Below, one piece after another: positions 19,183-35,791 of a stretch of DNA of 64,000 bases (positions are counted from its first letter, which is position 1; every line of letters starts with the position of its first letter). The notes under the pieces were generated by a model. That model made no database searches. It saw nothing but the letters and a program-made list of their open reading frames with translations, and was not told the origin of the DNA. The stretch covers positions 372,001 to 436,000 of the forward strand of contig NC_014924.1 of assembly GCF_000185965.1 (NCBI RefSeq), given 5' to 3'. This DNA is from Pseudoxanthomonas suwonensis 11-1 (GTDB lineage Bacteria; Pseudomonadota; Gammaproteobacteria; Xanthomonadales; Xanthomonadaceae). The position numbers and the translations under genes were made by a program.

Positions 19183-21480
19183 TCAGCGGCGCGGCACGAT
19201 CGCCGCCGCGGCGACGGTGGTGGCCGACGAGACCGGGGCACCACGCTTCGGTGCCACCCACAGCCGGAACACGAACCAGGCCAGCGACACCGCGCCGACG
19301 CTGAACAGCGTGTCGGCCGGGACGCGCATCCATACCAGCAGGTCGACGATCGGCTGCTGCATGAACTCCGCCGAGCGCGCGAACCAGTAGCCGTGCTCGA
19401 TCGCCGCGTCCAGCTGCAGGATGCCCAGCGGCAGCAGGGTGAACAGCGACATGCCGGCCAGGCCGATGTTGAGCGACCAGAAGCTGGTCTTCAGCAGGCG
19501 CTCGCTCCACTGCAGGTCGGGCTTGAGCCCGCGCAGGCAGAACAGCATCAGGCCGATGCCGAGCATGCCGTACACGCCGAACATCGCGGTGTGGCCGTGG
19601 TTGGCGGTCAGGTTCAGGCCCTGCATGTAGTACAGCGGCAGGGGCGGGTTGATCAGGAAGCCGAACAGGCCGGCGCCCACCAGGTTCCAGAACGACACCG
19701 CCAGGAAGAACATGATCGGCCACTTGTAGCGGGCCATCCACGGCGTGGCCTTGCCCAGCCTGTAGTTGTGCCAGGCCTCGAAGCCCACGTAGGCCAACGG
19801 CACCACTTCCAGCGCCGAGAAGCTGGCGCCCAGGCCGATGACGGCGGTCGGGGTGCCGGTGAAGTACAGGTGGTGCAGGGTGCCGAGCACGCCGCCGGCC
19901 ATGAAGATGATGGTGGCGAACAGCACCGCGACGGTGGCCGAACGCACCTGCAGCAGGCCCAGGCGGGTGAACAGGAAGGCGATCACCGCCACCGCGAAGA
20001 CCTCGAAGAAGCCTTCCACCCACAGGTGCACCACCCACCAGCGCCAGTACTCGACCATCGACAGGTGGCTGTGCTCGCCCCACATCAGACCGGCCGAATA
20101 GAACACGCCGATCGCGACCACCGACAGGAACAGCAGGCCCACGATCGAGCGCGACTCGGCGCCCTTGCGCATCGCCGGCCACAGGGCGCGACCGACCAGG
20201 GTGAGCCACAGCAGCAGGCCGACGAACAGGAACCACTGCCAGAACCGGCCCAGGTCGACGTATTCCCAGCCCTGGTGGCCGAACCAGAAGTTGTGGGCCA
20301 GGCCCAGCTTCTGCATCACCGCCATCCACTGCCCGGCGAAGGAGCCGACCACGATCACCAGCAGGCAGGTCCACAGCAGGTTGACGCCCAGGCGCTGGAA
20401 CTTCGGCTCGTACCCGGAGATGGCCGGGGCGATGTACAGGCCCATGCCGAGCCATGCGGTGGCGATCCACAGCACCGCCAGCTGGGTGTGCCAGGTGCGG
20501 GTCAGCGAGTAGGGCAGGATCTCGGACAGGGCGAAACCGTAGGCCTCCTGGCCTTCGACCTGGTAGTGCGCGGTGGTCGCGCCCAGCAGGATCTGCACCA
20601 GGAACAGCGCGATCACCACCCAGAAGTACTTGGCGGTGGCGCGCATCGACGGCGTGACCTTGATCAGCGCCAGCGGGTCGCTCTTCGGCAGGACCGGCTG
20701 CATCTCCTCGCCATGGCTGGTGGCATAGTGCCAGCCCAGCAGGCCGACGCCGGCGATCAGGAACAGCACACTGAACACCGTCCAGATCAGCAGGTTGGAC
20801 GGCGGGGTGTTGCCGACCAGCTCGTCATGCGGCCAGTTGGCCGTATAGCTGATCTCCGAACCGGGACGCTCGGTCACCGAGGCCCAGGCCGCCCACCAGT
20901 AGAACGCGGCGAGCTGGCGGCGGTGTTCGGCCCCGGGCACCGTGTCGTTGCGCATGGCGTAGGCCTCGCGCAGCTCAGCCGTGGCCGGGTCGTTGGAGAA
21001 CAGGCTCTCGTAATGCGCGGACACCTTCGCCATCGCCGCGGCGCGCTCGGCGTGGAGGGTGATGGTCGCGGTGCCGGCGTCCCAGGTGTTGGGGCGCAGC
21101 AGCGCCTGCACGCGCTTGGCGTAGGCGGCCTGGGTCGGTTCGTCCAGCTGCCTGTACGAATCAACGCCATGCTCGCGCGCGGCCCAGGCATCGAGGATGG
21201 CCTCGGCCTCGCGGTGCAGCCAGTCCGCGCCCCAGTCCGGGGCCACGTAGCCGCCGTGGCCCCAGATCGAGCCCAGTTGCTGGCCGCCGATCGACTGCCA
21301 GACCTGGCGTCCGGTCTCGATGTCGGCGCGGGTGTAGACGACGGTGCCGTCGGTGGTGACCACCTGTTCCGGCATCGGTGGTGCCTGGCGGTGGATCTCG
21401 CTGCCAACCCACAGCAGGGCGGCGAACGAGGCAAAGAGCAGGACCGCCAGGCCTGCCCAGAGCTTGCGTGTTGAATCCAT
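19183..21480 (-). CDS. norB: Quinol-dependent nitric oxide reductase (qNor, NorB/NorZ)
   Basis: 765 residues from ATG 21480, the length of the single-subunit qNor with a fused cytochrome-c-like N-terminal domain but no CxxCH haem motif. About 14 membrane helices. The N-terminal periplasmic part includes GRQVWQSIGGQQLGSIWGHG, and the catalytic core has HLWVEGFFEVFAVAVIAF with the His and Glu of the haem b3-FeB site, and HHLYFTGTP. It reduces NO to N2O using quinol. No norC is adjacent, in keeping with qNor. It follows fnr, with an FNR-type box between them. Confidence 0.93.
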   Translation of the reverse strand: MDSTRKLWAGLAVLLFASFAALLWVGSEIHRQAPPMPEQVVTTDGTVVYTRADIETGRQVWQSIGGQQLGSIWGHGGYVAPDWGADWLHREAEAILDAWAAREHGVDSYRQLDEPTQAAYAKRVQALLRPNTWDAGTATITLHAERAAAMAKVSAHYESLFSNDPATAELREAYAMRNDTVPGAEHRRQLAAFYWWAAWASVTERPGSEISYTANWPHDELVGNTPPSNLLIWTVFSVLFLIAGVGLLGWHYATSHGEEMQPVLPKSDPLALIKVTPSMRATAKYFWVVIALFLVQILLGATTAHYQVEGQEAYGFALSEILPYSLTRTWHTQLAVLWIATAWLGMGLYIAPAISGYEPKFQRLGVNLLWTCLLVIVVGSFAGQWMAVMQKLGLAHNFWFGHQGWEYVDLGRFWQWFLFVGLLLWLTLVGRALWPAMRKGAESRSIVGLLFLSVVAIGVFYSAGLMWGEHSHLSMVEYWRWWVVHLWVEGFFEVFAVAVIAFLFTRLGLLQVRSATVAVLFATIIFMAGGVLGTLHHLYFTGTPTAVIGLGASFSALEVVPLAYVGFEAWHNYRLGKATPWMARYKWPIMFFLAVSFWNLVGAGLFGFLINPPLPLYYMQGLNLTANHGHTAMFGVYGMLGIGLMLFCLRGLKPDLQWSERLLKTSFWSLNIGLAGMSLFTLLPLGILQLDAAIEHGYWFARSAEFMQQPIVDLLVWMRVPADTLFSVGAVSLAWFVFRLWVAPKRGAPVSSATTVAAAAIVPRR

Positions 21481-21539
21481 GATGCGGCCTCTCCGGCATG
21501 GGGACGCTCGCATCTTCGGCAGCGGGGCCGTGGCCGGCC

Positions 21540-21553
21540 CTGACGCAGGTCAA
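21540..21553. promoter_or_regulatory. FNR-type box for norB
   Basis: CTGACGCAGGTCAA, one half-site perfect and one with a single change, 59 bp upstream of the norB ATG and just downstream of the fnr stop. Confidence 0.7.
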
Positions 21554-21584
21554 GCCACGTGCAATGGCGCCTGCCGGAGCGTGA

Positions 21585-22343
21585 CTACTCGCGCAGGACG
21601 GCCAGTGCCAGCGCCTCGAGGCGCTCCATGTCCAGCACTTCCACGTCGCGCAGCTTGATGTGCAGCACGCCTTCCTGCTCGAAGCGGCGCAGCACGCGGC
21701 TGACGGTTTCCGGGGCCAGGCGCAGGTAGTTGGCGATGTCGGTGCGCGACATGGTCAGCTGGAAGCGGCGCGGCGAGAAGCCGCGCGCGGCCAGCCGCCG
21801 CGACAGCCCGATCAGGAATGCGGCCATGCGCTCGTCGGCGGTGTTGTCGCGGGCGAACAGCGAGGCCACGCCGATGTCGCGGCTCATCAGCCGGAACAGG
21901 TGCTGCTGCAGGTTGGGCAGGCGCTGCGCCAGCAGCGCGATCTTGGGGAACGAGAACCGGCACAGCATCACCGTGTCCAGCGCCACCGCATTGCAGGGAT
22001 AGCGGTCGTCGTGGATCGCGTTGAGGCCGATCACCTCGCCCGGCAGGTGGAAGCCCAGCACCTGCTCGTGGCCGTTGCGGTCGACCTGGTAGGTCTTGAC
22101 CGTGCCCGCGCGCACCGCGGCGATGGCGCCGAAGGGATCGCCCTCTCGGAACACGTGCTCGCCCGGGTGCAGCGGGCCGACGTGCTCGACCAGCACGTGC
22201 AGGTCCATCAGCGCGGCCTTGTCCATGCCCTCGGACATGCAGGCCTGCGAGAACGCGCAGGTGGAGCAGAAGGTCAGCGCGTCGCCGTCGTCGGCCATGA
22301 CGGCCGGACCGGTGCGCGGGAAGACTACCCCGGGTGTATTCAT
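21585..22343 (-). CDS. fnr: Fnr-type oxygen-sensing transcription regulator
   Basis: 252 residues from ATG 22343. Cysteines at 26, 29 and 35 (CSTCAFSQAC) and at 117 (RYPCNAV) reproduce the FNR [4Fe-4S] ligand set, so this is a true oxygen sensor rather than the cluster-free DNR type. A cyclic-nucleotide-like beta-roll is followed by a C-terminal helix-turn-helix whose recognition helix ETVSR matches FNR contact residues Glu, Ser and Arg. Co-directional with hemN 19 bp upstream. It is the natural candidate to bind the TTGAT/TTGAC boxes in this window. Confidence 0.95.
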   Translation of the reverse strand: MNTPGVVFPRTGPAVMADDGDALTFCSTCAFSQACMSEGMDKAALMDLHVLVEHVGPLHPGEHVFREGDPFGAIAAVRAGTVKTYQVDRNGHEQVLGFHLPGEVIGLNAIHDDRYPCNAVALDTVMLCRFSFPKIALLAQRLPNLQQHLFRLMSRDIGVASLFARDNTADERMAAFLIGLSRRLAARGFSPRRFQLTMSRTDIANYLRLAPETVSRVLRRFEQEGVLHIKLRDVEVLDMERLEALALAVLRE

Positions 22344-22362
22344 GCACGCCACTCCAGCGCCG

Positions 22363-23763
22363 TCACACGGTGCGCGAGTACCGGGGCGCGGCGGAATCGT
22401 TGGCGGGGGCAAGGTAGCGGTCGAAGCACATGGCGATGATACGCAGGAGCAGGCGCCCGCGCTGGGTGGCCTGCAGGCCGTGCCCGCCAAGTTCGACCAG
22501 GCCATCGGCCTGCAGCGGTTGCAGCCGCTCCAGGGCCTCGGCGAAATAGTCGCGGAAATCGATCACGTGGCGGCGGCCCAGGGCGTCGTAGTCCAGCCGG
22601 CCGTGGCACATCAGCTGCTGGATCACGTCGGCGCGGATCACGTCGTCCTCGTCCATGCGCATGCCGCGCCAGACCGGCAGCCGGCCTTCGTCGATCGCCT
22701 GCTCCCAGCCGCCGATGTCGCGCGGGTTCTGGCTGAAGCTGGCGCCGATGTGGCTGATCGCGCTGACGCCCAGGCCGACCAGGTCGCTCTCGGCATGGGT
22801 GGTGTAGCCCATGAAGTTGCGGTGCAGGCCGCCATCGCGCTGGGCGCGCGCGAGTTCATCGGTCGGCAGGGCGAAGTGGTCCATGCCGATGTATTCGTAG
22901 CCGGCCTGGCCCAGCTTCTCGATCGCCAGGCGCAACAGGTCCAGCTTCTGTTCGGCCGAGGGCAGGTCCTCGGCGTGGATGCGCTGCTGCGGGCGGAACA
23001 GGTTGGGCAGGTGGGCATAGCCGTAGATCGCGAGCCGGTCCGGGCGCACCTGCAGGGTGGTGTCCAGGGTGCGCTCGAAGCCCTCCAGGGTCTGCTTGGG
23101 CAGGCCGTAGATCAGGTCCACGTTGACCGAGCGGAAGCCGTGCGTGCGGCAGGCCTCGATGATGCCGAGGGTCTGCTCCACGCCCTGCACGCGGTTGACT
23201 GCCTGCTGCACCACCGGGTCGAAGTCCTGCACCCCGAGGCTGGCGCGGTTGAAGCCGGCCGCAGCCAGCTCGCCGACCTCGGCCGGGGTGATGAAGCGCG
23301 GATCCAGCTCGATCGAGCAGTCCATGCGCGCGCCCGGCGCGAAATGGAAATGCCGGCGCAGCACGTCCATCACCTCGGCGATCTGCGCCGGCTCGAGGAA
23401 GTTGGGCGTGCCGCCGCCGAAATGCACCTGCTCGACATCGCGGTCGCGGTCGAACAGCTCGGCGACCATGCCGATCTCGCGGTACAGCCGGGTCAGGTAG
23501 GCCGCGCCGCGCGCCTTGTCGCGGGTGATGATCCGGTTGCAGCCGCAGTAGAAGCACGGGCTGGTGCAGAACGGCACGTGCAGGTACAGCGAGATCGGGC
23601 GCGGGATCGGGTCGCCGTTGCTGGCGGCCGCCACCGCGCGCAGCTCCGCTTCGCCGAAGCCCGCGCTGAACTGCGGCGCGGTCGGATAGGAGGTGTAGCG
23701 CGGCCCCGGCACGTCGTAGCGCTGGAGCAGCTCCGGGTCGAACAGGGAGGACAGGCTGGCCAT
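22363..23763 (-). CDS. hemN: Oxygen-independent coproporphyrinogen III oxidase HemN
   Basis: 466 residues. The radical-SAM cluster motif CTSPCFYCGCN gives CxxxCxxC, preceded by SLYLHVPF and followed by VEQVHFGGGTPN. Length and the C-terminal HemN domain (GMDHFALPTDEL, FMGYTTH) agree with a true HemN rather than HemW. It makes protoporphyrinogen haem precursors without oxygen, as needed for NnrS, qNor and Nap cytochromes. An FNR-type box lies 34 bp upstream, and fnr follows. Confidence 0.95.
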   Translation of the reverse strand: MASLSSLFDPELLQRYDVPGPRYTSYPTAPQFSAGFGEAELRAVAAASNGDPIPRPISLYLHVPFCTSPCFYCGCNRIITRDKARGAAYLTRLYREIGMVAELFDRDRDVEQVHFGGGTPNFLEPAQIAEVMDVLRRHFHFAPGARMDCSIELDPRFITPAEVGELAAAGFNRASLGVQDFDPVVQQAVNRVQGVEQTLGIIEACRTHGFRSVNVDLIYGLPKQTLEGFERTLDTTLQVRPDRLAIYGYAHLPNLFRPQQRIHAEDLPSAEQKLDLLRLAIEKLGQAGYEYIGMDHFALPTDELARAQRDGGLHRNFMGYTTHAESDLVGLGVSAISHIGASFSQNPRDIGGWEQAIDEGRLPVWRGMRMDEDDVIRADVIQQLMCHGRLDYDALGRRHVIDFRDYFAEALERLQPLQADGLVELGGHGLQATQRGRLLLRIIAMCFDRYLAPANDSAAPRYSRTV

Positions 23764-24398: not shown

Positions 24399-24662
24399 GG
24401 GGTGTTGCCTGGTGGGGCGAGGGGCGGGCGGCAGCGGCGTGCCCGGGATGGCGTGTGGCTGGCCCACTACGGGGGTGATACCGGGCGGCCTTCCCCGGTA
24501 ACGGCCACGCCTGCCCGCGGTTTGAGCCCCGGACGCCGTCTTCGATCCCGATCAGTGACCGCGGCCGCGCTTTGGGGCCCGGCGCGAGCCGCGCGCGCAG
24601 CCAGGCCAACCGCGGCCGGGCGTAGCCGCCCTGCCGGCCCGGGCGATCCGGTTCCCACAGGG

Positions 24663-24685
24663 CCGATGTTGCATGGCAACATCGG
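24663..24685. promoter_or_regulatory. Perfect palindrome upstream of nasT
   Basis: CCGATGTTGC and GCAACATCGG flank a 3-base centre, a 23-bp inverted repeat ending 25 bp before the nasT ATG. It could be an operator or an RNA hairpin. The rest of the 24399-24710 gap shows nothing recognisable. Confidence 0.5.
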
Positions 24686-24710
24686 GCTACTCCCCGCCCT
24701 CCGGGTCCCG

Positions 24711-25283
24711 ATGCCGCGCGTCCTCCTGGTCAACGACACGGACAAGCCGATCGCCGAGCTGCGGCAGGCGCTGGCCGATGCCGGCTGCGAGGTGCTGTCG
24801 CACGTCTCCACCGCGGGCCTGCTGCGCGCGGTGCAGGAGCAGCAGCCGGACGTGGTGATCCTGGACGTGGAATCGCCCTCGCGCGACACCCTTGAACAGC
24901 TGGCCATCGTCGACCGGCAGGCGCCGCGCCCGGTGGTGATGTTCTCGGCCGACGGCGACGAGCGCCTGATCCGCGAGGCGCTGGGCGCTGGCGTGGCCGC
25001 CTACGTGGTCGACGGGCTGGCGCCGGGACGGCTGGCGCCGATCCTGCGCGTGGCCATGGCCCGCTTCGAGCAGCAGGCGCACCAGCGCCAGCGGGTGGAC
25101 GAGCTCGAACAGCGGCTGCAGGACCGCAAGGACATCGAACGCGCCAAGGGCCTGCTGATGGACCGCCGCGGCATGGCCGAGGCCGAGGCCTACGCCGCGC
25201 TGCGCCAGCAGGCGATGAAACAGGGCCTCAAGCTCGCGGACGTGGCGCGCCGCATCCTGGCCATGGCCGACCTGCTGGGCTGA
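24711..25283 (+). CDS. nasT: NasT-type ANTAR antitermination regulator
   Basis: 190 residues. An N-terminal receiver-like domain (PRVLLVNDTDKPIAELRQAL, Asp in VVILDVESPS) is followed by a coiled coil and a C-terminal ANTAR domain (about 130-187: RKDIERAKGLLMDRRGMAEA, LRQQAMKQGLKLADVARRI). ANTAR proteins bind tandem hexaloop hairpins in mRNA leaders and prevent termination. Here the target is very probably the leader at 26574-26611. nasS follows after 4 bp and would hold NasT inactive without nitrate or nitrite. Confidence 0.93.
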   Translation: MPRVLLVNDTDKPIAELRQALADAGCEVLSHVSTAGLLRAVQEQQPDVVILDVESPSRDTLEQLAIVDRQAPRPVVMFSADGDERLIREALGAGVAAYVVDGLAPGRLAPILRVAMARFEQQAHQRQRVDELEQRLQDRKDIERAKGLLMDRRGMAEAEAYAALRQQAMKQGLKLADVARRILAMADLLG

Positions 25284-25287
25284 TCGC

Positions 25288-26352
25288 ATGACCGATACCC
25301 GCGCCACCGCCACCTCCCTCCGCCCGCTCGACCTGGGCTTCATGCCGCTGCTGGACGCCGCGCCGCTGCTGGCCGCCTCGCACCTGGGCCTGGACCGGCG
25401 CCACGGCCTGCAGCTGCGCCTGCACCGGCAGCCGTCGTGGGCCACGCTGCGCGACCGCCTGCTCACCGGCGAGCTGGACGCGGCCCAGGCGATGTCGGCG
25501 ATGGTGCTGGGCGTGCAGGCGGGGATCGGCGGTCCGCAGGCGGACCTGGCCATCCTGCTGGGCCTCAACCGCAACGGCCAGGCGATCGCACTGGCGTCGG
25601 CGCTGGCCGACGGCCTCGCCCAGGGATGCCCGTTGCCGGAGTTGCTGCGCGCGCTGCCACGGCGGCCGGTGTTCGCCCAGACCTTCCCCACCGGCACCCA
25701 TGCGCTGTGGCTGTACTACTGGCTGGCCGCGCAGGGCGTGGATCCGCTGCGCGACATCGAGGCGGTGACCCTGCCGCCGTCGCGCATGCCGCAGGCGCTG
25801 GCGGCCGGCGAGCTGGATGGCTTCTGCGCCGGCGAGCCCTGGGGCGCGGAGGCCGAGAACCTGGGCGCGGGCCGGCGCGTGGTTGCCAGCGGGCAGCTGT
25901 GGCCCGGGCATCCGGAAAAGGTGCTGGCGACGCGCCGCAGCTTCGCCGCGCTGGAACCGGAGGTGTCGGTCGCCCTCACCGCGGCGGTGCTGGAAGCCTG
26001 CCGCTGGCTGGACGCTGATCCAGACCATCGTCGCCAGGCCGCGCAGTGGCTGGCGGCGGACGACGCGATCGACGTGCCCGCGCAGCGCCTGCTCGCCGGC
26101 CTGCTGCCGGTCGGCGAGCCCGGCCAGCTGTTGCAGTTCCATGCCGGTGGCCAGGCCAACTTCCCGTGGATCTCCGACGGCCGCTGGATCCTCGGCCAGT
26201 TCCGCCGCTGGGGCTGGCTGCCGCCGGTGGATGGCGACGACGCCTGGCTGGCGGATGTATTCCGCACCGGCAGCTACCGCGAGGCTGCGGCGATGCTGGG
26301 CGTGCCGGTGCCGGACGAGCACTCGCGCCCGGGCGCACCCACGCCGTCCTGA
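25288..26352 (+). CDS. nasS: NasS-type cytoplasmic nitrate sensor (NrtA-like)
   Basis: 354 residues, no signal peptide, in keeping with the cytoplasmic NasS rather than periplasmic NrtA. Family landmarks are LDLGFMPLLDAAPLLAAS, QAMSAMVLGVQAGIGG, a HALWLYYWLAAQGVDP segment, GELDGFCAGEPWG and QANFPWISDGRWILGQ. NasS binds NasT in the absence of nitrate and releases it on nitrate binding. The order nasT-nasS with 4 bp between them indicates a two-gene operon ahead of the regulated nas genes. Confidence 0.92.
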   Translation: MTDTRATATSLRPLDLGFMPLLDAAPLLAASHLGLDRRHGLQLRLHRQPSWATLRDRLLTGELDAAQAMSAMVLGVQAGIGGPQADLAILLGLNRNGQAIALASALADGLAQGCPLPELLRALPRRPVFAQTFPTGTHALWLYYWLAAQGVDPLRDIEAVTLPPSRMPQALAAGELDGFCAGEPWGAEAENLGAGRRVVASGQLWPGHPEKVLATRRSFAALEPEVSVALTAAVLEACRWLDADPDHRRQAAQWLAADDAIDVPAQRLLAGLLPVGEPGQLLQFHAGGQANFPWISDGRWILGQFRRWGWLPPVDGDDAWLADVFRTGSYREAAAMLGVPVPDEHSRPGAPTPS

Positions 26353-26360
26353 GCGCCACA

Positions 26361-26398
26361 TGCACGCGCACGGTGCGCGACGGCACCGCGGAGGTGCA
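26361..26398. promoter_or_regulatory. Two NtrC-like enhancer sites
   Basis: TGCACG-N5-GGTGCG at 26361-26377 and GGCACC-N5-GGTGCA at 26382-26398 fit the NtrC consensus TGCACC-N5-GGTGCA. Their centres are 21 bp apart, two helical turns, and about 145-165 bp upstream of the predicted sigma-54 start site. Confidence 0.7.
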
Positions 26399-26508
26399 TG
26401 AGGCCGTCCAGTGGCGTCCGCCGGCTGTTCGACCCGGCGTCCAGGCAATCCCGCGAAACCAAGGCACAGCAAGGCTTCGCGTGACTTGTGCTGCACCGCG
26501 GCGGAAGT

Positions 26509-26523
26509 TGGCACGCTGATTGC
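26509..26523 (+). promoter_or_regulatory. Sigma-54 (RpoN) promoter of the nas operon
   Basis: TGGCAC-N5-TTGC gives the invariant GG (26510-26511) and GC (26522-26523) with 10 bases between, as required at -24/-12. Transcription would start near 26535. Confidence 0.85.
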
Positions 26524-26573
26524 GTAGTCCCTGGTGCGGGCGCAACGACGTGCACGCATCAAAACCTGCAAGC

Positions 26574-26611
26574 CCGGCCAACGGCGGCCGGCACCAAGAC
26601 AACGGCGTCTT
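26574..26611 (+). ncRNA. ANTAR-target tandem-hairpin leader RNA
   Basis: First hairpin: CCGGCC/GGCCGG stem (26574-26591) with hexaloop AACGGC. Second hairpin: AAGAC/GTCTT stem (26596-26611) with the identical hexaloop. A 4-base linker separates them. Paired hexaloops with A at position 1 and G at position 4 are the known recognition element of ANTAR proteins such as NasR and NasT. The second hairpin uses part of the 5' strand of the terminator that follows, so the two structures exclude each other. Confidence 0.85.
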
Positions 26612-26645
26612 CCGGCCACCCGGCCGGGAGGCGCTTTTTTGTTTT
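26605..26645 (+). terminator. Intrinsic terminator in the nas leader (attenuator)
   Basis: A 13-bp stem including G-T wobbles (26605-26617 with 26622-26634, loop of four) runs straight into TTTTTTGTTTT. It lies 42 bp ahead of the transporter start codon, so read-through would be needed for expression. NasT binding to the tandem hairpins should block it. Confidence 0.9.
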
Positions 26646-26686
26646 CCAGCTCCGCGGTGCCCCCACCGCTGCCAGGAGAGACCCGG

Positions 26687-27895
26687 ATGGACCGTTCGTT
26701 CTGGAAAGCCGGACACACGCCGACCCTGCTGTCGGCCTTCCTCTACTTCGACCTCAGCTTCATGGTCTGGTACCTGCTGGGCCCGATGCAGGTGCAGATC
26801 GCGCAGGCGCTGCAACTGGACACCCAGCAGCGCGCGCTGATGGTGGCCGTGCCGATCCTGTGCGGTGCCGTGCTGCGCCTGTTCCTCGGCCTGCTGGCCG
26901 ACCGCATCGGCGCCAAGACCACCGGCGTGCTGGCGCAGATCGTGGTGATCGCCGCGCTGGCCGTGGCCTGGCGGCTGGGCGTGCACAGCTTCGGCCAGGT
27001 GCTGCTGCTGGGCGTGATGCTGGGCGTGGCCGGCGCCTCGTTCGCGGTGGCGCTGCCGCTGGCCTCGCGCTGGTATCCGCCGCAGCACCAGGGCACGGCG
27101 ATGGGCATCGCCGGTGCCGGCAACTCCGGCACCGTGTTCGCCGCGTTGCTGGCGCCCGCACTTGCGGTGGCCTACGGCTTCCAGAACGTGTTCGGCCTGG
27201 CCTGCATCCCGCTGCTGCTGGTGCTGGCGGTTTTCTGGACCTTTGCGCGCGAGGCGCCGGTGGTGGTGGCGCGCAAGGGACTGGGCGACTACGCACGGGT
27301 GCTGGTTGGCAACCGCGACTCGTGGTGGTTCATGTTCTTCTACGCGATCACCTTCGGCGGCTTCTCCGGCTTCGCCAGCGCGCTGCCGGGCTATTTCCAC
27401 GACCAGTTCGCGTTCGAACCGAAGGTCGCCGGCTGGGCCACCGCCGCCTGCGTGCTGGCCGGCTCGGTGATGCGGCCGCTCGGCGGCGTGATCGCCGACC
27501 GCATCGGCGGCACCCGTTCGCTGCAGGCGGTGTACGCCGCGGTGACGGTGCTGGTGGCCGCCGCGGCCTTGCAGGTGGGCGGCCCGGTGGTGACCGTGGC
27601 CCTGTTCGTGCTGACCCTGCTGTGCCTGGGGGCAGGCAATGGCGCGGTGTTCCAGCTGGTGCCGCAGCGCTTCGGCGCCGAGATCGGATTGATGACCGGG
27701 CTGATCGGCATGGCCGGCGGCGTGGGCGGCTTCCTGCTGGCGGCCGGGCTGGGCGTGGTCAAGCAGCAGGCCGGCAGCTACGGCCCGGGCCTGTGGCTGT
27801 TCGCCGGCATCGCCCTGGCGGCCTCGCTGTGCCTGGTCGGGGTGAAGCAGCGCTGGCGCGTCGGCTGGGCACGCCTCGGCGACGCCCGCGTGTAG
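26687..27895 (+). CDS. NarK/NasA-type nitrate transporter (MFS, NNP family)
   Basis: 402 residues from ATG 26687, preceded by aggagag; the longer frame to 26534 lies in the leader RNA. Twelve membrane helices. The NNP signatures appear in MGIAGAGNSGTVFAA and the second copy around LGAGNGAVFQLVPQRF, with the arginines of helices 2 and 8 in LRLFLGLLADRIG and VMRPLGGVIADRIGG. It imports nitrate, possibly with nitrite exchange, for the cytoplasmic NasA/NirBD pathway encoded behind it. First gene of the attenuated operon. Confidence 0.93.
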   Translation: MDRSFWKAGHTPTLLSAFLYFDLSFMVWYLLGPMQVQIAQALQLDTQQRALMVAVPILCGAVLRLFLGLLADRIGAKTTGVLAQIVVIAALAVAWRLGVHSFGQVLLLGVMLGVAGASFAVALPLASRWYPPQHQGTAMGIAGAGNSGTVFAALLAPALAVAYGFQNVFGLACIPLLLVLAVFWTFAREAPVVVARKGLGDYARVLVGNRDSWWFMFFYAITFGGFSGFASALPGYFHDQFAFEPKVAGWATAACVLAGSVMRPLGGVIADRIGGTRSLQAVYAAVTVLVAAAALQVGGPVVTVALFVLTLLCLGAGNGAVFQLVPQRFGAEIGLMTGLIGMAGGVGGFLLAAGLGVVKQQAGSYGPGLWLFAGIALAASLCLVGVKQRWRVGWARLGDARV

Positions 27896-27938
27896 CGGTT
27901 CCTTCAGTTCCTTCCTCCCCCACAGCAGGCAGACCGCC

Positions 27939-28796
27939 ATGGGCTACGTGAGCCCCTCCGAACTGGCCGCGAAGATGGTCGACGCAGGCCAGGCCAAGAT
28001 CCTGATGTCCACCCGCGACACCGTCATCCGCGCCTACATGGCCGGCGCGATCCTCGCCCTGGCGGCCGCGTTCGCGGTGACCGTCACCGTGCAGACCGGG
28101 CAGCCGCTGCTGGGCGCGCTGCTGTTCCCGGTCGGCTTCTGCATCCTCTACCTGCTCGGCTTCGACCTGCTGACCGGGGTGTTCACCCTGTGCCCGCTGG
28201 CGGTGATCGACCGCCGCCCCGGCTGCACCTGGCGCGGGGTGCTGCGCAACTGGGGCCTGGTGTTCGCGGGCAACTTCGCCGGCGCGCTGACGGTGGCGGT
28301 GTTCATGTCGATCATCGTCACCTTCGGCTTCAGCACCGCGCCGGATGCCATCGGCCAGAAGCTGGGGCATATCGGCGAGGCGCGCACCCTGGGCTATGCC
28401 GCCCACGGCGCGGCCGGGATGCTGACCCTGTTCGTGCGCGGCGTGCTGTGCAACTGGATGGTCTCCACCGGCGTGGTCGGGGCGATGGTGTCCTCCCACG
28501 TGTCCGGCAAGGTCATCGCCATGTGGATGCCGATCATGGTGTTCTTCTACATGGGCTTCGAGCACTCCATCGTCAACATGTTCCTGTTCCCGAGCGGACT
28601 GATGCTCGGCGGGCAGTTCTCCTTCGGCGACTACCTGGTCTGGAACGAGATCCCGACCGTGGTCGGCAACCTGGTCGGTGGCCTGACCTTCGTCGGCCTG
28701 ACGATCTACGCCACCCACGCCCGCACCGCCGCCGGCGCCGCCCGTGTCCCGCCTGCGCCGGCCCCGTCGCCGGGCGCGGCTGCCGGGAGCGCCTGA
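27939..28796 (+). CDS. nirC: Formate/nitrite transporter family channel (NirC-like)
   Basis: 285 residues, six membrane helices. FNT landmarks include an N-terminal MGYVSPSELAAKMVDAG, GVLCNWMVSTG in helix 4, and FEHSIVNMFLFP, the family's conserved central-constriction segment. The C-terminal tail is Ala/Pro-rich and probably disordered. With nirB and nirD downstream it most likely carries nitrite, as NirC does, supporting uptake or relief of nitrite. The symbol is by context; formate transport cannot be excluded. Confidence 0.85.
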   Translation: MGYVSPSELAAKMVDAGQAKILMSTRDTVIRAYMAGAILALAAAFAVTVTVQTGQPLLGALLFPVGFCILYLLGFDLLTGVFTLCPLAVIDRRPGCTWRGVLRNWGLVFAGNFAGALTVAVFMSIIVTFGFSTAPDAIGQKLGHIGEARTLGYAAHGAAGMLTLFVRGVLCNWMVSTGVVGAMVSSHVSGKVIAMWMPIMVFFYMGFEHSIVNMFLFPSGLMLGGQFSFGDYLVWNEIPTVVGNLVGGLTFVGLTIYATHARTAAGAARVPPAPAPSPGAAAGSA

Positions 28797-29363
28797 GTGC
28801 AGCCGGCCATGGCCAACCCGACGATCACACCGCATGACGCCTTCGTTGCCATGGATGGCGACGCCTCCCTGCACGCGGCAACGGTGCGGATCGTGGTCGA
28901 TCCGCTGACCGGCCCGGAGATCGCGGCACTGCTGCAGGAGCACCTGGACGAGATGTACCGGCTGTCACCGCCGGAAAGCGTGCATGCGCTGGACCTCGAT
29001 CGCCTGCGTGCGCCGGACATCACCTTCTGGAGCGCATGGGATGGCGACGGCCTGCTTGGCTGTGGCGCGCTGCGCGAGCTGGATCCGGCCCACGGCGAGG
29101 TCAAGTCGATGCGCACCGCGGCGCGCGCGCGTCGCCGCGGCGTGGCGGCGGCGCTGCTGTCGCGGGTGGTCGAAGAGGCGCGCCGTCGCGGCTACCGGCG
29201 GCTCAGCCTGGAGACCGGCAGCCAGCCCGCCTATGTGCCGGCACGCGCGCTGTACGCGCGTGCCGGCTTCCGTCCCTGCGCTCCGTTCGCGGATTACGTC
29301 GAGGACCCCTGTTCCACGTCCATGACCCTGGCCCTGCAGGGGCCAAGCGAGGAAACACGATGA
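28797..29363 (+). CDS. GNAT-family N-acetyltransferase inside the nas operon
   Basis: 188 residues from GTG 28797, directly behind the nirC stop; ATG 28809 is an equal alternative. GNAT core: LLGCGALRELDPAHGEVKSM, then the acetyl-CoA loop RRRGVAAALLSRVV and YVPARALYARAGFRPC. It resembles YsnE/PhnO-like small-molecule or peptide acetyltransferases. Its stop overlaps the nirB start (ATGA), so it is translated with the nitrite reductase genes. A link to nitrogen assimilation is only positional. Confidence 0.85.
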   Translation: MQPAMANPTITPHDAFVAMDGDASLHAATVRIVVDPLTGPEIAALLQEHLDEMYRLSPPESVHALDLDRLRAPDITFWSAWDGDGLLGCGALRELDPAHGEVKSMRTAARARRRGVAAALLSRVVEEARRRGYRRLSLETGSQPAYVPARALYARAGFRPCAPFADYVEDPCSTSMTLALQGPSEETR

Positions 29364-31825
29364 AGAAGCCCAGGCTGGTGGTGGTGGGCAACGGCATGGC
29401 CGGCATCCGCACGCTCGAGGAGCTGCTGAAGCTGGTGCCCGGGATGTACGACATCACGGTGTTCGGCGCCGAGCCGCATCCCAACTACAACCGCATCCTG
29501 CTGTCGCCGGTGCTGGCCGGCGAGCAGGACTTCGACGACATCGTGCTCAACCCGCTGTCCTGGTACGCGGACAACGGCATCACCCTGCACCTGGGCAAGG
29601 AGGTCACCCGGATCGACCGCGTGCACCGCAAGGTGGTCGCCGCCGACGGCACCGAAGCCGAGTACGACCGCCTGCTGCTGGCCACCGGCTCGGTGCCCTT
29701 CATCCTGCCGATCCCCGGCAAGGACCTGAAGGGCGTCATCGGCTACCGCGACATCCACGACACCCGCACCATGATCGAGACCGCGAAGGTGAAGCGGAAC
29801 GCGGTGGTGATCGGCGGTGGGCTGCTCGGGCTGGAGGCGGCCAACGGCCTCAGGCAGCGCGGCATGGAGGTGACCGTGGTGCACCTGGCCGGCTGGCTGC
29901 TGGAGCGCCAGCTCGACCCGGTGGCTGGTGCGCTGCTGGAGAAGTCGCTGCGCGAGCGCGGGCTGGACTTCAGGCTCAACACCTCGACCACGGAGATCGT
30001 CGGCAACGAGGCTGGCGAAGTGGCCGCGGTGCGCTTCTCCGACGGCGGGGAGGTCGCCGCCGACCTGGTGGTCATGGCCGCCGGCATCCGTCCCAACACC
30101 GCCCTGGCCCAGGCCGCCGGCATCCACTGCAACCGCGGCATCGTGGTCAACGACACCCTGCAGACCTACGACCCGCGGGTGTACGCGGTGGGCGAATGCG
30201 CGGCGCACCGCGGCATCGCCTACGGCCTGGTCGCGCCGCTGTTCGAGCAGGCGAAGATCTGCGCCAACCACCTGGCGACCTTCGGCATTGGCATCTACAA
30301 GGGCTCGGCGGTGTCGACCAAGCTCAAGGTCACCGGCATCGACCTGTTCTCCGCCGGCGACTTCATGGGCGGGGAGGGCACCGAGGAGATCGTGCTGTCG
30401 GATCCGGCCGCCGGCCTGTACCGCAAGCTGGTGATCCGCGACGACCGCCTGGTCGGTGCCTGCCTGTACGGCGACACCGCCGACGGCGCCTGGTACTTCA
30501 AGCAGATCAAGGACGGCACCGCGATCGGCGGGCGCCGCGACACCCTGGCCTTCGGCGAGACCGCGATGGGCGAGGCCGGCACCGCCGGCCAGGACCGCGC
30601 CGCGACCATGGCCGACACCGATGAGGTCTGCGGCTGCAACGGCGTGTGCAAGGGCACCATCGTCAAGGCGGTGCGCGAGCAGGGCCTGTTCACCGTGGAC
30701 GAGGTGAAGAAGCACACCAAGGCCGCCAGTTCCTGCGGCTCGTGCACCGGCCTGGTCGAGCAGATCCTGATGAACTGCCTGGGTTCCAACTTCCAGGAGA
30801 CGCCCAAGACCAAGGCGGTGTGCGGCTGCACCAGCCTCACCCATGGCGAGGTGCGCCAGGCGATCCGCGAGCACCACCTGGTCAGCCACGCCCAGGCCTA
30901 CGCCTTCATGGAATGGCGCACGCCCAACGGCTGCGCCACCTGCCGGCCGGCGATCAACTACTACATGCTCTCGACCTGGCCGCGCGAGGCCGTGGACGAC
31001 CCGCAGAGCCGCTTCATCAACGAGCGCGCCCACGCCAACATCCAGAAGGACGGCACCTTCTCGGTGGTGCCGCAGATGAAGGGCGGCGTCACCAATCCCT
31101 CCGAGCTGCGCCGTATCGCCGACGTCGCCGACAGGTACGCCATCCCCATGGTCAAGGTCACCGGTGGCCAGCGCATCGACCTGCTGGGCGTGCGCAAGGA
31201 GGACCTGGTCGATGTCTGGCGCGACCTGGGGATGAAGTCCGGCCACGCCTACGGCAAGTCGATCCGCACGGTGAAGACCTGCGTGGGCAGCGAGTTCTGC
31301 CGCTTCGGCACCCAGAACAGCACGCAGATGGGCATCGACCTGGAAACCATGCTGGCCAACATGTGGAGCCCGCACAAGGTCAAGCTCGCCGTGTCCGGCT
31401 GCCCGCGCAACTGCGCCGAAAGCGGGATCAAGGACGTGGGCATCATCGCGGTGGATTCGGGATGGGAGATCCACGTCGGCGGCAACGGCGGGATCCGAAC
31501 CGAGGTCGCGCAGTTCCTGTGCAAGGTGCGCACGGCCGAGGAAGTGAAGGAATACACCGGCGCCTTCCTGCAGCTGTACCGCGAAGAGGCGTACTACCTG
31601 GACCGCACCGTGCACTACATCCAGCGCGTGGGCCTGGAATACGTCAAGCGCAAGGTGGTCGAAGACGCCGAAAGCCGGCGCGCGCTGTACGAGCGCCTGC
31701 TCTATGCGCTGGAAGGCCTGCCGGATCCGTGGCAGGCGCAGATCGCCGGCGAGCGTCCGCGCGAGTACACGCCGCTGAAGCTGGAGGCGCCGGAGCGGCG
31801 CATCCCTGCGACCCTGGAGGACTGA
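29360..31825 (+). CDS. nirB: Assimilatory NADH-nitrite reductase large subunit NirB
   Basis: 821 residues. The N-terminal FAD/NAD(P) reductase half starts RLVVVGNGMAG, with a second dinucleotide site VVIGGGLLGLEA. A BFD-like [2Fe-2S] domain follows near residue 420 (CGCNGVCKG and CGSC). The sulfite/nitrite-reductase half carries the siroheme-[4Fe-4S] cysteines in TCVGSEFCRFG and SGCPRNCAES. It reduces nitrite to ammonium in the cytoplasm. It overlaps the GNAT stop and is one base ahead of nirD. Confidence 0.96.
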   Translation: MKKPRLVVVGNGMAGIRTLEELLKLVPGMYDITVFGAEPHPNYNRILLSPVLAGEQDFDDIVLNPLSWYADNGITLHLGKEVTRIDRVHRKVVAADGTEAEYDRLLLATGSVPFILPIPGKDLKGVIGYRDIHDTRTMIETAKVKRNAVVIGGGLLGLEAANGLRQRGMEVTVVHLAGWLLERQLDPVAGALLEKSLRERGLDFRLNTSTTEIVGNEAGEVAAVRFSDGGEVAADLVVMAAGIRPNTALAQAAGIHCNRGIVVNDTLQTYDPRVYAVGECAAHRGIAYGLVAPLFEQAKICANHLATFGIGIYKGSAVSTKLKVTGIDLFSAGDFMGGEGTEEIVLSDPAAGLYRKLVIRDDRLVGACLYGDTADGAWYFKQIKDGTAIGGRRDTLAFGETAMGEAGTAGQDRAATMADTDEVCGCNGVCKGTIVKAVREQGLFTVDEVKKHTKAASSCGSCTGLVEQILMNCLGSNFQETPKTKAVCGCTSLTHGEVRQAIREHHLVSHAQAYAFMEWRTPNGCATCRPAINYYMLSTWPREAVDDPQSRFINERAHANIQKDGTFSVVPQMKGGVTNPSELRRIADVADRYAIPMVKVTGGQRIDLLGVRKEDLVDVWRDLGMKSGHAYGKSIRTVKTCVGSEFCRFGTQNSTQMGIDLETMLANMWSPHKVKLAVSGCPRNCAESGIKDVGIIAVDSGWEIHVGGNGGIRTEVAQFLCKVRTAEEVKEYTGAFLQLYREEAYYLDRTVHYIQRVGLEYVKRKVVEDAESRRALYERLLYALEGLPDPWQAQIAGERPREYTPLKLEAPERRIPATLED

Positions 31826-31826
31826 C

Positions 31827-32192
31827 ATGCCCACGAATGCCAACTGGATGCGGGTGTGCACGCTCGGGGAGATCCCGCTGCTGGGATCGCGCGTGCTGGA
31901 CTGCGGGCAGGGGGAGGCCATCGCCCTGTTCCGTCCCGAGGCGGGCAAGGTGTTCGCCCTGGCCGACCGCTGCCCGCATCGCGGCGGTCCGCTGTCGCAG
32001 GGCATCGTCGCCGGGGAAACGGTGACCTGCCCGCTGCACGGCTGGAACATCCGCCTCGACGACGGCCAGGCCTGCGCCCCGGACGTGGGCTGCGCCCGCA
32101 CCTATCCCGTGCAGCTGCGCGGCGATGAGGTGTGGCTGGCGCTGCCACTGGAACCGGCCACGCCGGTGGGCGCAGCGGAGGCGGTGGCCTGA
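31827..32192 (+). CDS. nirD: Nitrite reductase small subunit NirD (Rieske)
   Basis: 121 residues. A Rieske [2Fe-2S] site reads CPHRGGPL and CPLHGW, i.e. CxH with CxxH. Length and position behind nirB are typical. It pairs with NirB in cytoplasmic nitrite reduction. Its TGA shares a base with the nasA ATG, so the two are translationally coupled. Confidence 0.95.
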   Translation: MPTNANWMRVCTLGEIPLLGSRVLDCGQGEAIALFRPEAGKVFALADRCPHRGGPLSQGIVAGETVTCPLHGWNIRLDDGQACAPDVGCARTYPVQLRGDEVWLALPLEPATPVGAAEAVA

Positions 32193-34972
32193 TGGATGGC
32201 GCCGTCCGCACCGCGCAGGCGCCGCCGGCGGTGGAGCGGCGCACCACCCGCAGCACCTGCTGCTACTGCGGCGTGGGCTGCGGCGTGCTGGTGCACAGCC
32301 GGCACGATGCCGCCGGCGAACGCATCACGGGCGTGGAAGGCGATCCCCTGCATCCGGCCAACCTGGGCCGCCTGTGCAGCAAGGGTCGCACCCTGGCCGA
32401 GACCGCGCGCAGCCTGCACGGCCGCGCCCTGGTGCCGGAGCTGCGCCACCGCCGCCAGGATCCGCGCCCGCCGGTGGACTGGGCTGTGGCGCTGGACAGC
32501 GTGGCCGACCGCCTGGCCAACATCGTCGAGCGGCATGGTCCGGACGCGGTGGCGTTCTACCTGTCCGGGCAGCTGCTGACCGAGGACTACTACGTCTTCA
32601 ACAAGCTGGCCAAGGGCCTGCTGCGCACCAACAACATCGATACCAACTCGCGGCTGTGCATGTCCGCCGCGGTGACCGGCTACAAGCTGGCCTTCGGCGC
32701 CGACGGCCCGCCCACCTGCTACGAGGACCTGGAACACGCGAAGACCGTGCTGTTCGCCGGCAGCAATGCCGCCTGGGCGCATCCGGTGCTGTTCCGGCGG
32801 CTGGAGGAGGCGCGGGCGAAGGATCCGGACGTGCGCTGGATCGTGGTCGATCCACGCCGCACCGATACCGCGGCCATGGCCGACCTGCACCTGCAGATCC
32901 AGCCCGGCACTGACGTGGCCCTGTTCAACGGCATGCTCCACCACCTGGTGTGGGAGGGGCTGCTCGACCAGGCCTTCATCGACCGCCACACCACCGGTTT
33001 CAGCGAACTCAAGCGCCTGCTGCGCGACTACAGCCCGCGCATGGCGGCGGAGATCTGCGGCGTGCCGGTCGAGGACCTGGTCACCGCGGCCGAGTGGTTC
33101 GGACGCAGCGCGGCGTCGCTGTCGCTGTACTGCATGGGCCTGAACCAGTCGGTGCACGGCACCGACAAGAACCTCGCCCTGATCCACCTGCACCTGGCCA
33201 CCCGCCAGCTGGGCCGCCCGGGGGCGGGGCCGTTCTCGCTCACCGGCCAGCCCAATGCCATGGGCGGGCGCGAGGTCGGCGGCATGGCGACCATGCTGGC
33301 CGCGCACCGCGAGATCACCGATCCGGCGCACCGCGCCGAGGTCGAGGCCCTGTGGCAGCTGCCGCAGGGCAGCCTGCCGCCACAGCCGGGACTGGCGGCG
33401 GTGGAGTTGTTCGAGGCGGTGCGCGCCGGCCGGATCAAGGCCATCTGGATCGCATGCACCAATCCCGCGCATTCGATGCCCGACCTCGGCCCGGTACGCG
33501 AGGCGCTGCAGCGCGCCGAGCTGGTGATCGTGCAGGAGGCCTTCGCCAATACCGATACCGTGCCCTATGCCGACGTGCTGCTGCCGGCCGCCACCTGGGG
33601 CGAGAAGGAGGGCACGGTCACCAATTCCGAGCGCCGCATCTCGCGCGTGCGCGCGGCGGTGGCGCCGCCGGGGCAGGCGCGTCCGGACTGGTGGATCGCG
33701 CGCGAAGTGGCGCTGCGGCTGGAAGCGCGTTTGGCCGCACCGGGCGCCGCGCCGCTGTTCGCGGCCGACACGCCTGCGGCGATCTTCGCCGAGCACCGCG
33801 CGCTGACCGTGGGCCGCGACCTGGATATCGGCGGGCTGGATTACGCCGTGCTGGAGCAACGCGGTCCGCAGCAGTGGCCGTTCCGGGCCGGTGCGGAGCA
33901 GGGTGACGCGCGTCGCTATGCCGACGGCGTGTTCGCCACCGCCGATGGCCGCGCACGCTTCCATGTCACCCCGTACCGGCCAGTCGCCGAGCCGACGTCG
34001 GCGCGTTTCCCGCTGCGCCTGCTGACCGGGCGCCTGCGCGACCAGTGGCATGGCATGTCGCGCACCGGGCGGGTTCCGGCGCTGTACACGCATAGCCCCG
34101 AGCCTGCGCTGCGCATGCACCCCGAGGATGCGGCACGGCGCGGCCTCAAGGCCGGCGAGCTGGTGCGCGTGTCCAGCAAGCGCGGCGGCCTGGTATTGCC
34201 GCTGGAGCTGTCCGACGAGGTCGGCTCCGGCACCGTGTTCGCGGCCATGCACTGGAGCGGCCAGCACCTGGCCAGCGGCGGCATCAACGAGCTCAGCCAG
34301 CCGGCGGTCGACACGCGCTCGCGCCAGCCCGAGCTCAAGCACGCCGCGGTGCGGGTGGAGAGGGCGGACTTCAGCTGGCACCTGCTGGCCGCGCGCCGTG
34401 GCGAGGTGCTGGCGATGCACGCGGCCGTGCAGCCGTTGCTTGCGGCCTGCGGCTACGCCTCGGTCACGCTGCAGCCGGACGTGGATCCGGAGGCGGTCGA
34501 AGGCAGCGGCTGGGTGGTGCTGCGCGCTGCGGCCTCCGGGGCGATGCCAGCCGACTGGCAGGCCGCGCTGGAGAACGCGCTGGGCCTGGCCGCCTCCGCC
34601 GACACCCTCGAGTACCGCGACGCCCGCCGCGGCCAGCTCAAGCGCGTGGCCTGGCGCAGCGTCGCCAGCGGCAGCCATATCGACGGCCTGCTGTGGAGCG
34701 ACGTCCGTCGCGGGGGCGAAGCCCTGCTGCGCACCGCGCTGGCCGGCGATCCCTGGCAGGGCTCGCGCCTGGCCGCCTTCGCCGCGCTGCCCGAGGTCGC
34801 ACGTGACCCGGTGGTCTGCGTCTGCCGCCAGGTCAGCGAATCGGCGATCCAGGCCGAAGTGCGCGCCGGCGCCGACCTGCCCGCGCTCAAGCAGCGCCTG
34901 GGCTGCGGCACGGTCTGCGGCTCCTGTGTTCCACAGCTCACCCGCTTCGTCCGCCAGGCCGCCAGCGCCTGA
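32192..34972 (+). CDS. nasA: Assimilatory nitrate reductase catalytic subunit NasA
   Basis: 926 residues from ATG 32192. An N-terminal [4Fe-4S] site (CCYCGVGC, then RLCSKG) leads to the Mo-bisMGD domains, with the Mo ligand region NIDTNSRLCMSAAVTGYK, then GSNAAWAHPV and FSLTGQPNAMGGREVGG. The C-terminal 50 residues form a BFD-like [2Fe-2S] domain (VCVCRQ, CGTVCGSC), as in enterobacterial NasA. There is no Tat signal, so the enzyme is cytoplasmic. It reduces imported nitrate to nitrite for NirBD. Confidence 0.95.
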   Translation: MDGAVRTAQAPPAVERRTTRSTCCYCGVGCGVLVHSRHDAAGERITGVEGDPLHPANLGRLCSKGRTLAETARSLHGRALVPELRHRRQDPRPPVDWAVALDSVADRLANIVERHGPDAVAFYLSGQLLTEDYYVFNKLAKGLLRTNNIDTNSRLCMSAAVTGYKLAFGADGPPTCYEDLEHAKTVLFAGSNAAWAHPVLFRRLEEARAKDPDVRWIVVDPRRTDTAAMADLHLQIQPGTDVALFNGMLHHLVWEGLLDQAFIDRHTTGFSELKRLLRDYSPRMAAEICGVPVEDLVTAAEWFGRSAASLSLYCMGLNQSVHGTDKNLALIHLHLATRQLGRPGAGPFSLTGQPNAMGGREVGGMATMLAAHREITDPAHRAEVEALWQLPQGSLPPQPGLAAVELFEAVRAGRIKAIWIACTNPAHSMPDLGPVREALQRAELVIVQEAFANTDTVPYADVLLPAATWGEKEGTVTNSERRISRVRAAVAPPGQARPDWWIAREVALRLEARLAAPGAAPLFAADTPAAIFAEHRALTVGRDLDIGGLDYAVLEQRGPQQWPFRAGAEQGDARRYADGVFATADGRARFHVTPYRPVAEPTSARFPLRLLTGRLRDQWHGMSRTGRVPALYTHSPEPALRMHPEDAARRGLKAGELVRVSSKRGGLVLPLELSDEVGSGTVFAAMHWSGQHLASGGINELSQPAVDTRSRQPELKHAAVRVERADFSWHLLAARRGEVLAMHAAVQPLLAACGYASVTLQPDVDPEAVEGSGWVVLRAAASGAMPADWQAALENALGLAASADTLEYRDARRGQLKRVAWRSVASGSHIDGLLWSDVRRGGEALLRTALAGDPWQGSRLAAFAALPEVARDPVVCVCRQVSESAIQAEVRAGADLPALKQRLGCGTVCGSCVPQLTRFVRQAASA

Positions 34973-34996: not shown

Positions 34997-35791
34997 TTGG
35001 CCCGCGACCCCCGTCACCCTGCCGATCTCCGCCGCCCGCCCGCCGAGGTGGTGCTGCTGTCCGCCGGGCCCGGCGACCTGGAACTGCTGACCCTCAAGGC
35101 GGTGCGTGCCCTGCAGGAGGCCGAGGTGCTGCTGCTGGACGAACTGGTCGATCCGGGCATCGTCGAACTGGCGCCGCATGCGCGGGTGGTGCGCGTGGGC
35201 AAGCGTGGCGGATGCCGCTCCACGCCGCAGGCCTTCATCTGCCGGCTGATGCGGCGCTACGCGCTGCAGGGCCTGCGCGTGGTGCGGGTGAAGGGCGGCG
35301 AGGCGCTGATGTTCGGCCGTGCGGGCGAGGAGATCGCGTTCCTGCGCGAGGCCGGCGTGCCGGTACGCATCATCAACGGTGTCAGCGCCGCCTTCGCCGC
35401 CGCCGCATCGCTGGGCGTCTCCCTGACCCACCGTGAACACTGCCACGGCGTCACCTTCGTCACCGCGCACACGGCCGACCACGGCGAGCCAGACTGGGAT
35501 GCATTGGCGCGCGGCGGTACCACCTTGGCTATCTACATGGGCATGGGCCGGCTCGCCGGCATCGCGCGTGCGCTGCTGGCCCATCTTCCGGCCGGGACGC
35601 CCGCGGCGGTGGTGCAGGGCGCCTCGCGTGAGGACGAACGCCTGGTCGTGGACACGCTTGGGGGCCTGGCCGAGATGCAGGCCACCCATCGCGGCGCGCC
35701 GGGCGTCATCCTGGTCGGCGCGGCCCTGGGCGAGGCCATTGGCGTGGCCACGGAGGCTGCGTCGTGCATGGAGCGGATGGTCGCGTCCTGA
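34997..35791 (+). CDS. cobA: Uroporphyrinogen-III C-methyltransferase
   Basis: 264 residues; the TTG start at 34997 has ggag upstream. SUMT motifs: VVLLSAGPGDLELLTLKA, VVRVKGGEALMFGRAGEE, IINGVSAAFAAAASLG with SLTHREH, and IYMGMGRL. It makes precorrin-2 for the siroheme of NirB, hence its place at the end of the nas operon. The usual KGGDP element reads KGGEA, a variant worth noting. There is no CysG oxidase/chelatase half, so those steps need another protein. Confidence 0.9.
   Translation: MARDPRHPADLRRPPAEVVLLSAGPGDLELLTLKAVRALQEAEVLLLDELVDPGIVELAPHARVVRVGKRGGCRSTPQAFICRLMRRYALQGLRVVRVKGGEALMFGRAGEEIAFLREAGVPVRIINGVSAAFAAAASLGVSLTHREHCHGVTFVTAHTADHGEPDWDALARGGTTLAIYMGMGRLAGIARALLAHLPAGTPAAVVQGASREDERLVVDTLGGLAEMQATHRGAPGVILVGAALGEAIGVATEAASCMERMVAS

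Follow-up and report, generated by a model that had tools for sequence, protein, structure and literature searches.

The window analysed was a stretch of 64,000 nucleotides (positions 372001-436000) of the 3,419,049-base genome of Pseudoxanthomonas suwonensis 11-1. Nitrate-assimilation genes followed one another on its forward strand, beginning with nasT and nasS (Table 1). NasT was 98% identical to NasT of Pseudoxanthomonas suwonensis DSM 17175, and nasT was the only ANTAR gene of the whole genome. As in NasS-NasT systems, a NasT with receiver and ANTAR domains adjoined an NMT1/NrtA-type NasS and the nas genes; the one-protein NasR type was not indicated, since NasT had a receiver domain and, by Pfam, no NIT domain fused to ANTAR. 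Specificity of the MFS transporter for nitrate would follow from its gene context, and the tetrapyrrole methylase was the probable uroporphyrinogen methyltransferase for siroheme.

Within the nas operon, a GNAT acetyltransferase gene (28797-29363) separated the nitrite transporter gene from nirB, with start and stop codons closely packed. Near nasT, the minus strand encoded a quinol-type nitric oxide reductase-like protein and an Fnr/Crp-like regulator (19183-22505; translation judged by eye). A 10-bp inverted repeat immediately 5' of nasT (CCGATGTTGC-ATG-GCAACATCGG, 24663-24685) may be an operator or an RNA hairpin controlling nasTS; its core ATGTTGCATGGCAACAT had one exact copy in the genome, and was exact or near-exact 5' of nasT in the other Xanthomonadaceae loci displayed.

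Table 1. Genes and predicted control elements of the nitrate-assimilation locus (positions in the window).
Feature	Position	Strand	Evidence and remarks
nasT (response-regulator receiver and ANTAR RNA-binding domain)	24711..25283	+	Pfam Response_reg 5.6e-13, ANTAR 1.5e-19
nasS (nitrate/nitrite sensor, relative of periplasmic binding proteins)	25288..26352	+	Pfam NMT1_2 2e-77; directly 3' of nasT
NtrC-like site 1, TGCACGCGCACGGTGCG	26361..26377	.	9/10 to TGCAC-N7-GTGCA; position kept in relatives
NtrC-like site 2, GGCACCGCGGAGGTGCA	26382..26398	.	9/10 to TGCAC-N7-GTGCA; position kept in relatives
Sigma-54 promoter, TTGGCACGCTGATTGC (-24 GG, -12 GC)	26508..26523	+	TGGCA/TTGC columns invariant in 35 leaders
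H0, promoter-proximal hairpin, loop AACGAC (26544-26549)	26532..26561, core 26536-26557	+	dG -15.3, z -2.5; covariation
H1 hairpin, loop AACGGC (26580-26585)	26572..26592	+	6/7 pairs covary; dG -12.9
H2, putative antiterminator hairpin, loop AACGGC (26601-26606)	26596..26611	+	Weak alone, -3.3 kcal/mol
Intrinsic terminator, 14 pairs	26604..26635	+	dG -28.5 kcal/mol, z -5.1; T-rich tail 26635-26645
narK-type MFS transporter, putatively for nitrate/nitrite	26687..27895	+	Pfam MFS_1 1.6e-38; first gene past the attenuator
Formate/nitrite-type transporter	27939..28796	+	Pfam Form_Nir_trans
Assimilatory nitrite reductase large subunit, NirB/NasB type	29360..31825	+	Pfam Pyr_redox_2, Fer2_BFD, NIR_SIR
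Nitrite reductase small subunit (Rieske; nasE)	31827..32192	+	Pfam Rieske
Assimilatory nitrate reductase (molybdopterin, NasA type)	32198..34972	+	Pfam Molybdopterin, Molydop_binding, Fer2_BFD
Tetrapyrrole methylase	34997..35791	+	Pfam TP_methylase

All control elements lay between nasTS and the transporter gene, where the initial annotation had placed them, and the two NtrC-like sites 21 bp apart and the TGGCAC-N5-TTGC promoter that it had proposed were both present. The start-to-start distance of the two sites corresponded to two helical turns, and two sites of such quality occurred by chance in 0.1% of dinucleotide shuffles of the control region. The leaders of relatives (n = 42) contained 45 NtrC-like sites of 9/10 quality, against 1.0 expected, most of them near -145 and -124 relative to the promoter. 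As a bare pattern the sigma-54 box carried little weight: the 3.4 Mb contained 5 exact matches, and one-mismatch counts scarcely exceeded control. The genome encoded NtrC (683 bits against a cut-off of 558.6), with a perfect NtrC box (TGCACTAAATTGGTGCA) directly 5' of the gene upstream of ntrC, and two RpoN proteins, both above the family cut-off (G000:C1:1206701 and 1656299). A -24/-12 element with paired upstream NtrC sites, in a genome with ntrC and rpoN, points to a promoter of the NtrC/sigma-54 type. With the -12 C at 26523, transcription (+1) would be expected to start near 26535, so that the RNA would open with H0, perhaps without the outermost pairs of that hairpin (26532-26534), which lie 5' of the predicted +1.

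Two hairpins with AACGGC loops had been recognised in the leader by the initial annotation; both were present (H1 and H2), and a third (H0), whose hexaloop is likewise of the A-N-N-G type, had been overlooked. The terminator overlapping the second hairpin was also found as described, with 26604-26611 common to it and to H2 (-28.5 against -3.3 kcal/mol), and was the only strong terminator within 24600-29400. The whole-leader fold had a z of -4.1, and in the minimum-energy fold the first two hairpins coexisted with the terminator. The mutual exclusivity that had been ascribed to the hairpins and the terminator therefore held for H2 only, as in known ANTAR attenuators. Each of the three hexaloops had A1 and G4 and was closed by a C-G pair, which never varied in H0 and H2 and varied once in H1 (34 distinct rows). 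The leader thus had the features of the ANTAR dual-hairpin motif (at least two A1/G4 hexaloop hairpins, C:G closing pairs and a second hairpin overlapping an intrinsic terminator) except for the number of exactly two hairpins, there being three here and in most Xanthomonadaceae leaders; it was classed as a variant of that motif because the functional core was retained.

The conservation of the leader was followed in an alignment of 35 rows (34 Xanthomonadaceae and one Neisseriaceae bacterium). In the H0 stem, both partners had changed in 7 of 9 pairs, and the paired cells made up 95.6%; the P. suwonensis H0 had an internal G-A mismatch. The covariation score of the three hairpins was 0.324, against 0.172 for shuffled alignments, a comparison that kinship among the sequences can inflate, and at most 0.115 with the strands slid, which is the safer control. 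Loop positions 1 to 4 of H0 (AACG) and the closing C-G pair were invariant in all rows, and positions 5 and 6 drifted (AACGGC, AACGGG, AACGAG, AACGAC). These loop variants break pairing with the terminator, which argues against a loop kept merely for that pairing. The pattern matched the A1, G4 and terminal C:G signature that SELEX had found for NasR (PMC7496416). The H0 loop lay 20-21 nt past the -12 GC in 49 of 55 distinct leaders of the family. Judged by this conservation, the third hexaloop hairpin is best regarded as a conserved variant of the known ANTAR leader design.

The NasS-NasT systems of the Paracoccus denitrificans nasA leader (PMC3795266, PMC5424462) and of Azotobacter vinelandii nasAB (cited there) share with P. 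suwonensis a receiver-plus-ANTAR NasT, a NasS sensor, genes that adjoin the nas operon, leader hairpins with a terminator, and ntr control; two hairpins (HI and HII) were mutated in the Paracoccus papers, whereas P. suwonensis has three A1/G4 hexaloops, the first at the predicted RNA 5' end. Klebsiella oxytoca nasF (PMC3369936, PMC7496416) has A1/G4 hexaloops P1 and P2 with C-G loop-closing pairs, P2 overlapping the terminator, and nitrate-responsive antitermination, but NasR senses nitrate by its own NIT domain, and P. suwonensis uses a separate NasS and an extra hairpin. The EutV-regulated eut leaders (PMC3369931) likewise have hexaloop hairpins in pairs, and their P2 cannot form together with the terminator; they differ in belonging to an ethanolamine system of Firmicutes with two hairpins. 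No description of a third hexaloop hairpin was found in the papers examined, and it may have been reported elsewhere before.

Natural losses of the loop signature were informative as to the roles of H0 and H1. Both hairpins had A1/G4 in 51 of 55 distinct Xanthomonadaceae leaders (script and check by eye). The signature was lost in H0 only in three leaders (L216, L217, L218), which kept the H0 stem, and in H1 only in one (L227, identical in leader sequence to L034), where H1 had become CCCGGC-AGCC-GCCGGG; no leader (0/55) had lost it in both, and therefore H2 and at least one upstream partner were always kept in the leaders of this family. The strict hairpin counter overlooked H1 stems mismatched near the loop (e.g., L017, L024) and H0 in L230 and L237; hairpins missed in this way were inspected by eye and excluded from the loss counts. 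The three family members without the H0 loop signature indicate that H0 may be dispensable in some leaders and is probably not essential in all, and the pattern of losses suggests that H0 and H1 are interchangeable partners for H2. With considerable confidence, the region that controls the nitrate-assimilation operon is read as a predicted NasS/NasT attenuator behind an Ntr promoter, in which H0 and H1 would be alternative or joint partners of H2.

A standard two-hairpin attenuator formed by H1 and H2, with H0 as a leftover or as a hairpin that only stabilises the 5' end, in neither case bound by NasT, was considered unlikely. It agrees with the two hairpins of the described ANTAR motif (PMC3369931) and with the three relatives that have an H0 stem without loop A1/G4, but a stabiliser would have no need of the A1, G4 and closing C-G pair that stay constant across 35 leaders even as loop positions 5 and 6 change. 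The leader of L034, which kept H0 and lost the H1 loop, and the recurrence of extra A1/G4 hexaloops in other families also count against it. That H0 and H2 are the true binding pair, with H1 serving chiefly to space and juxtapose them, was judged quite improbable: L034 and several other families have a middle tetraloop or a non-A1/G4 hexaloop with the distal hairpin intact, but H1 had A1/G4 in 54 of the 55 distinct family leaders, and three members have H1 without a proper H0 loop.

There was little likelihood that most transcription of the operon comes from nasTS read-through, with the sigma-54 promoter in a minor role. The end of nasS is 334 bp from narK, on the same strand and with no other strong terminator, and nasTS transcripts would also reach the attenuator, but the promoter and the NtrC sites were strongly conserved in relatives. 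The lack of another strong terminator between nasTS and the attenuator makes it probable that 26604-26635 also terminates nasTS transcripts when nitrate is absent. It was very hard to credit that H0 is a DNA palindrome for a transcription factor near the start site and not an RNA element, for although dyad symmetry at a fixed promoter distance would likewise yield paired changes, an invariant asymmetric centre (AACG) with freely varying arms is the reverse of a typical operator, and G-U pairs, which fit RNA, were common in the H0 stem.

Under the favoured arrangement of H0 and H1 as alternative or joint partners of H2, nitrogen limitation would activate NtrC, which would bind the paired sites and fire the sigma-54 promoter. 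By default the transcript would open with H0 and H1, and the terminator would then form. In published work on relatives, nitrate frees NasT from NasS, and NasT then binds leader RNA (PMC3795266); blocking of the terminator is ascribed to an ANTAR dimer that grips two hexaloops (PMC3369936). In P. suwonensis, nitrate or nitrite would likewise make NasS let go of NasT, which would clamp H2 and an upstream partner hexaloop and deprive the terminator of the H2 3' strand, and RNA polymerase would read on into the transporter, nirB and nasA genes. H0 and H1 would already be folded by the time H2 is transcribed, so that NasT could load on them early and catch the weak H2 ahead of the much stronger terminator. 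The elements, with their conservation, covariation and spacing, were read from the sequence itself; that NasT binds each of the hairpins, that it is loaded early and that the region works as a two-input gate are proposals based on homology and architecture. The two-input gate put forward by the initial annotation fits all elements, their conservation, the known systems, and the NtrC, RpoN and sole ANTAR genes, once the number of hairpins and their exclusivity with the terminator are corrected. A two-input nitrate gate at this locus would be a new instance of an arrangement known from other bacteria.

At gathering thresholds, Rfam found only a tRNA in the window. The leader scored 28.4 bits with RF03032 (narK RNA; gathering score 43.2) and 23.6 bits with RF00625 (P11; gathering score 70), and a weak tfoR match was dismissed as terminator-like similarity. 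The consensus of narK RNA and that of P11 each had a sigma-54 box (GGCaCAgcucUUGCU and UUGGCACAagcaCUGC, respectively) and A1/G4 hexaloop hairpins, and genomic matches of the two families (L060-L082) mostly had a sigma-54 box, hexaloop hairpins and a terminator near nasT/nasS. RF03032 resembled the P. suwonensis leader in its sigma-54-like box, in P1 with CAACGGCG and in an unannotated second hairpin (CGAC-AAAGAC-GUCG), and differed in that the model is without a third hairpin. Its 5' part was misaligned here: the promoter part was placed on 26539-26553, which is H0, the actual promoter being at 26508-26523. RF00625 was similar in its sigma-54 box, its hexaloop hairpins (AACGAU and AAAGGC) and its overlapping terminator, but it is named an sRNA (Pseudomonas), and in L073 the loop of its middle hairpin was closed by G-C. 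Both families appear to be NasT-type attenuators that include their own sigma-54 promoter. The narK family appears to include promoter DNA and to have left its second hairpin unannotated, which was possibly noted before; a function is thereby suggested for this RNA, whose 5' part would be promoter DNA and not RNA.

Among class genomes, 76 of 369 had a NasT homologue, as did 75 of 395 family genomes, and a heuristic script gathered 52 distinct leaders from the family and 57 from elsewhere. Upstream, 40 of the 52 and 17 of the 57 had a further A1/G4 hexaloop hairpin (stem length at least 5), compared with 0.8 and 0.5 in shuffles; some of the 17 were distant single partners, so that the true number of three-hairpin leaders is smaller. 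All C-G-closed hexaloop hairpins upstream in the 57 other leaders had A1 and G4 (19/19; about 1 in 16 expected). Clear three-hairpin leaders included L047, L066/L069/L104, L097, L158, L174, L176 and L177, and in several other families the middle hairpin was without A1/G4 and the distal hairpin retained it. A model built from family leaders (R2) matched leaders in several other families; some matches were without one hexaloop, so that an R2 match alone is no proof of three hairpins. R2 had one match in the P. suwonensis genome. Apart from the leader, the pattern matched the genome once, at 1043724 and over 64 nt, and this was treated as chance, not as a second leader.

Antitermination by ANTAR proteins is generally explained by one protein dimer gripping two hairpins. 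A wider reading is slightly favoured, according to which Xanthomonadaceae and several other families have NasT leaders with three (sometimes four) ANTAR hexaloops, the upstream two would be interchangeable partners or a preloading platform for NasT oligomers, and the rule of one dimer and two hairpins would be a special case. By the same reading, the sigma-54 promoter would set the first hexaloop at the 5' end of the RNA, and narK RNA and P11 would likewise be promoter-plus-attenuator units. The natural single losses (H0 only or H1 only, never both) provide ready mutants for the number of hairpins that NasT needs, and bear as well on whether NasT acts as an oligomer and on whether the likelihood of read-through depends on early loading at the 5' end.

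Further arrangements of leaders were observed in individual loci. L158 (G121:C4:296427-308990) had a nas region with a pair of attenuators, one of three hexaloop hairpins and the other of four. In Pigmentiphaga and relatives (L041, L042, L044, L045, L048, L051), the leader behind nasTS had a canonical H2 and no clear canonical partner; a second leader lay about 3 kb upstream of nasT in L042, L044, L045, L048 and L051, with a canonical partner in all except L048.
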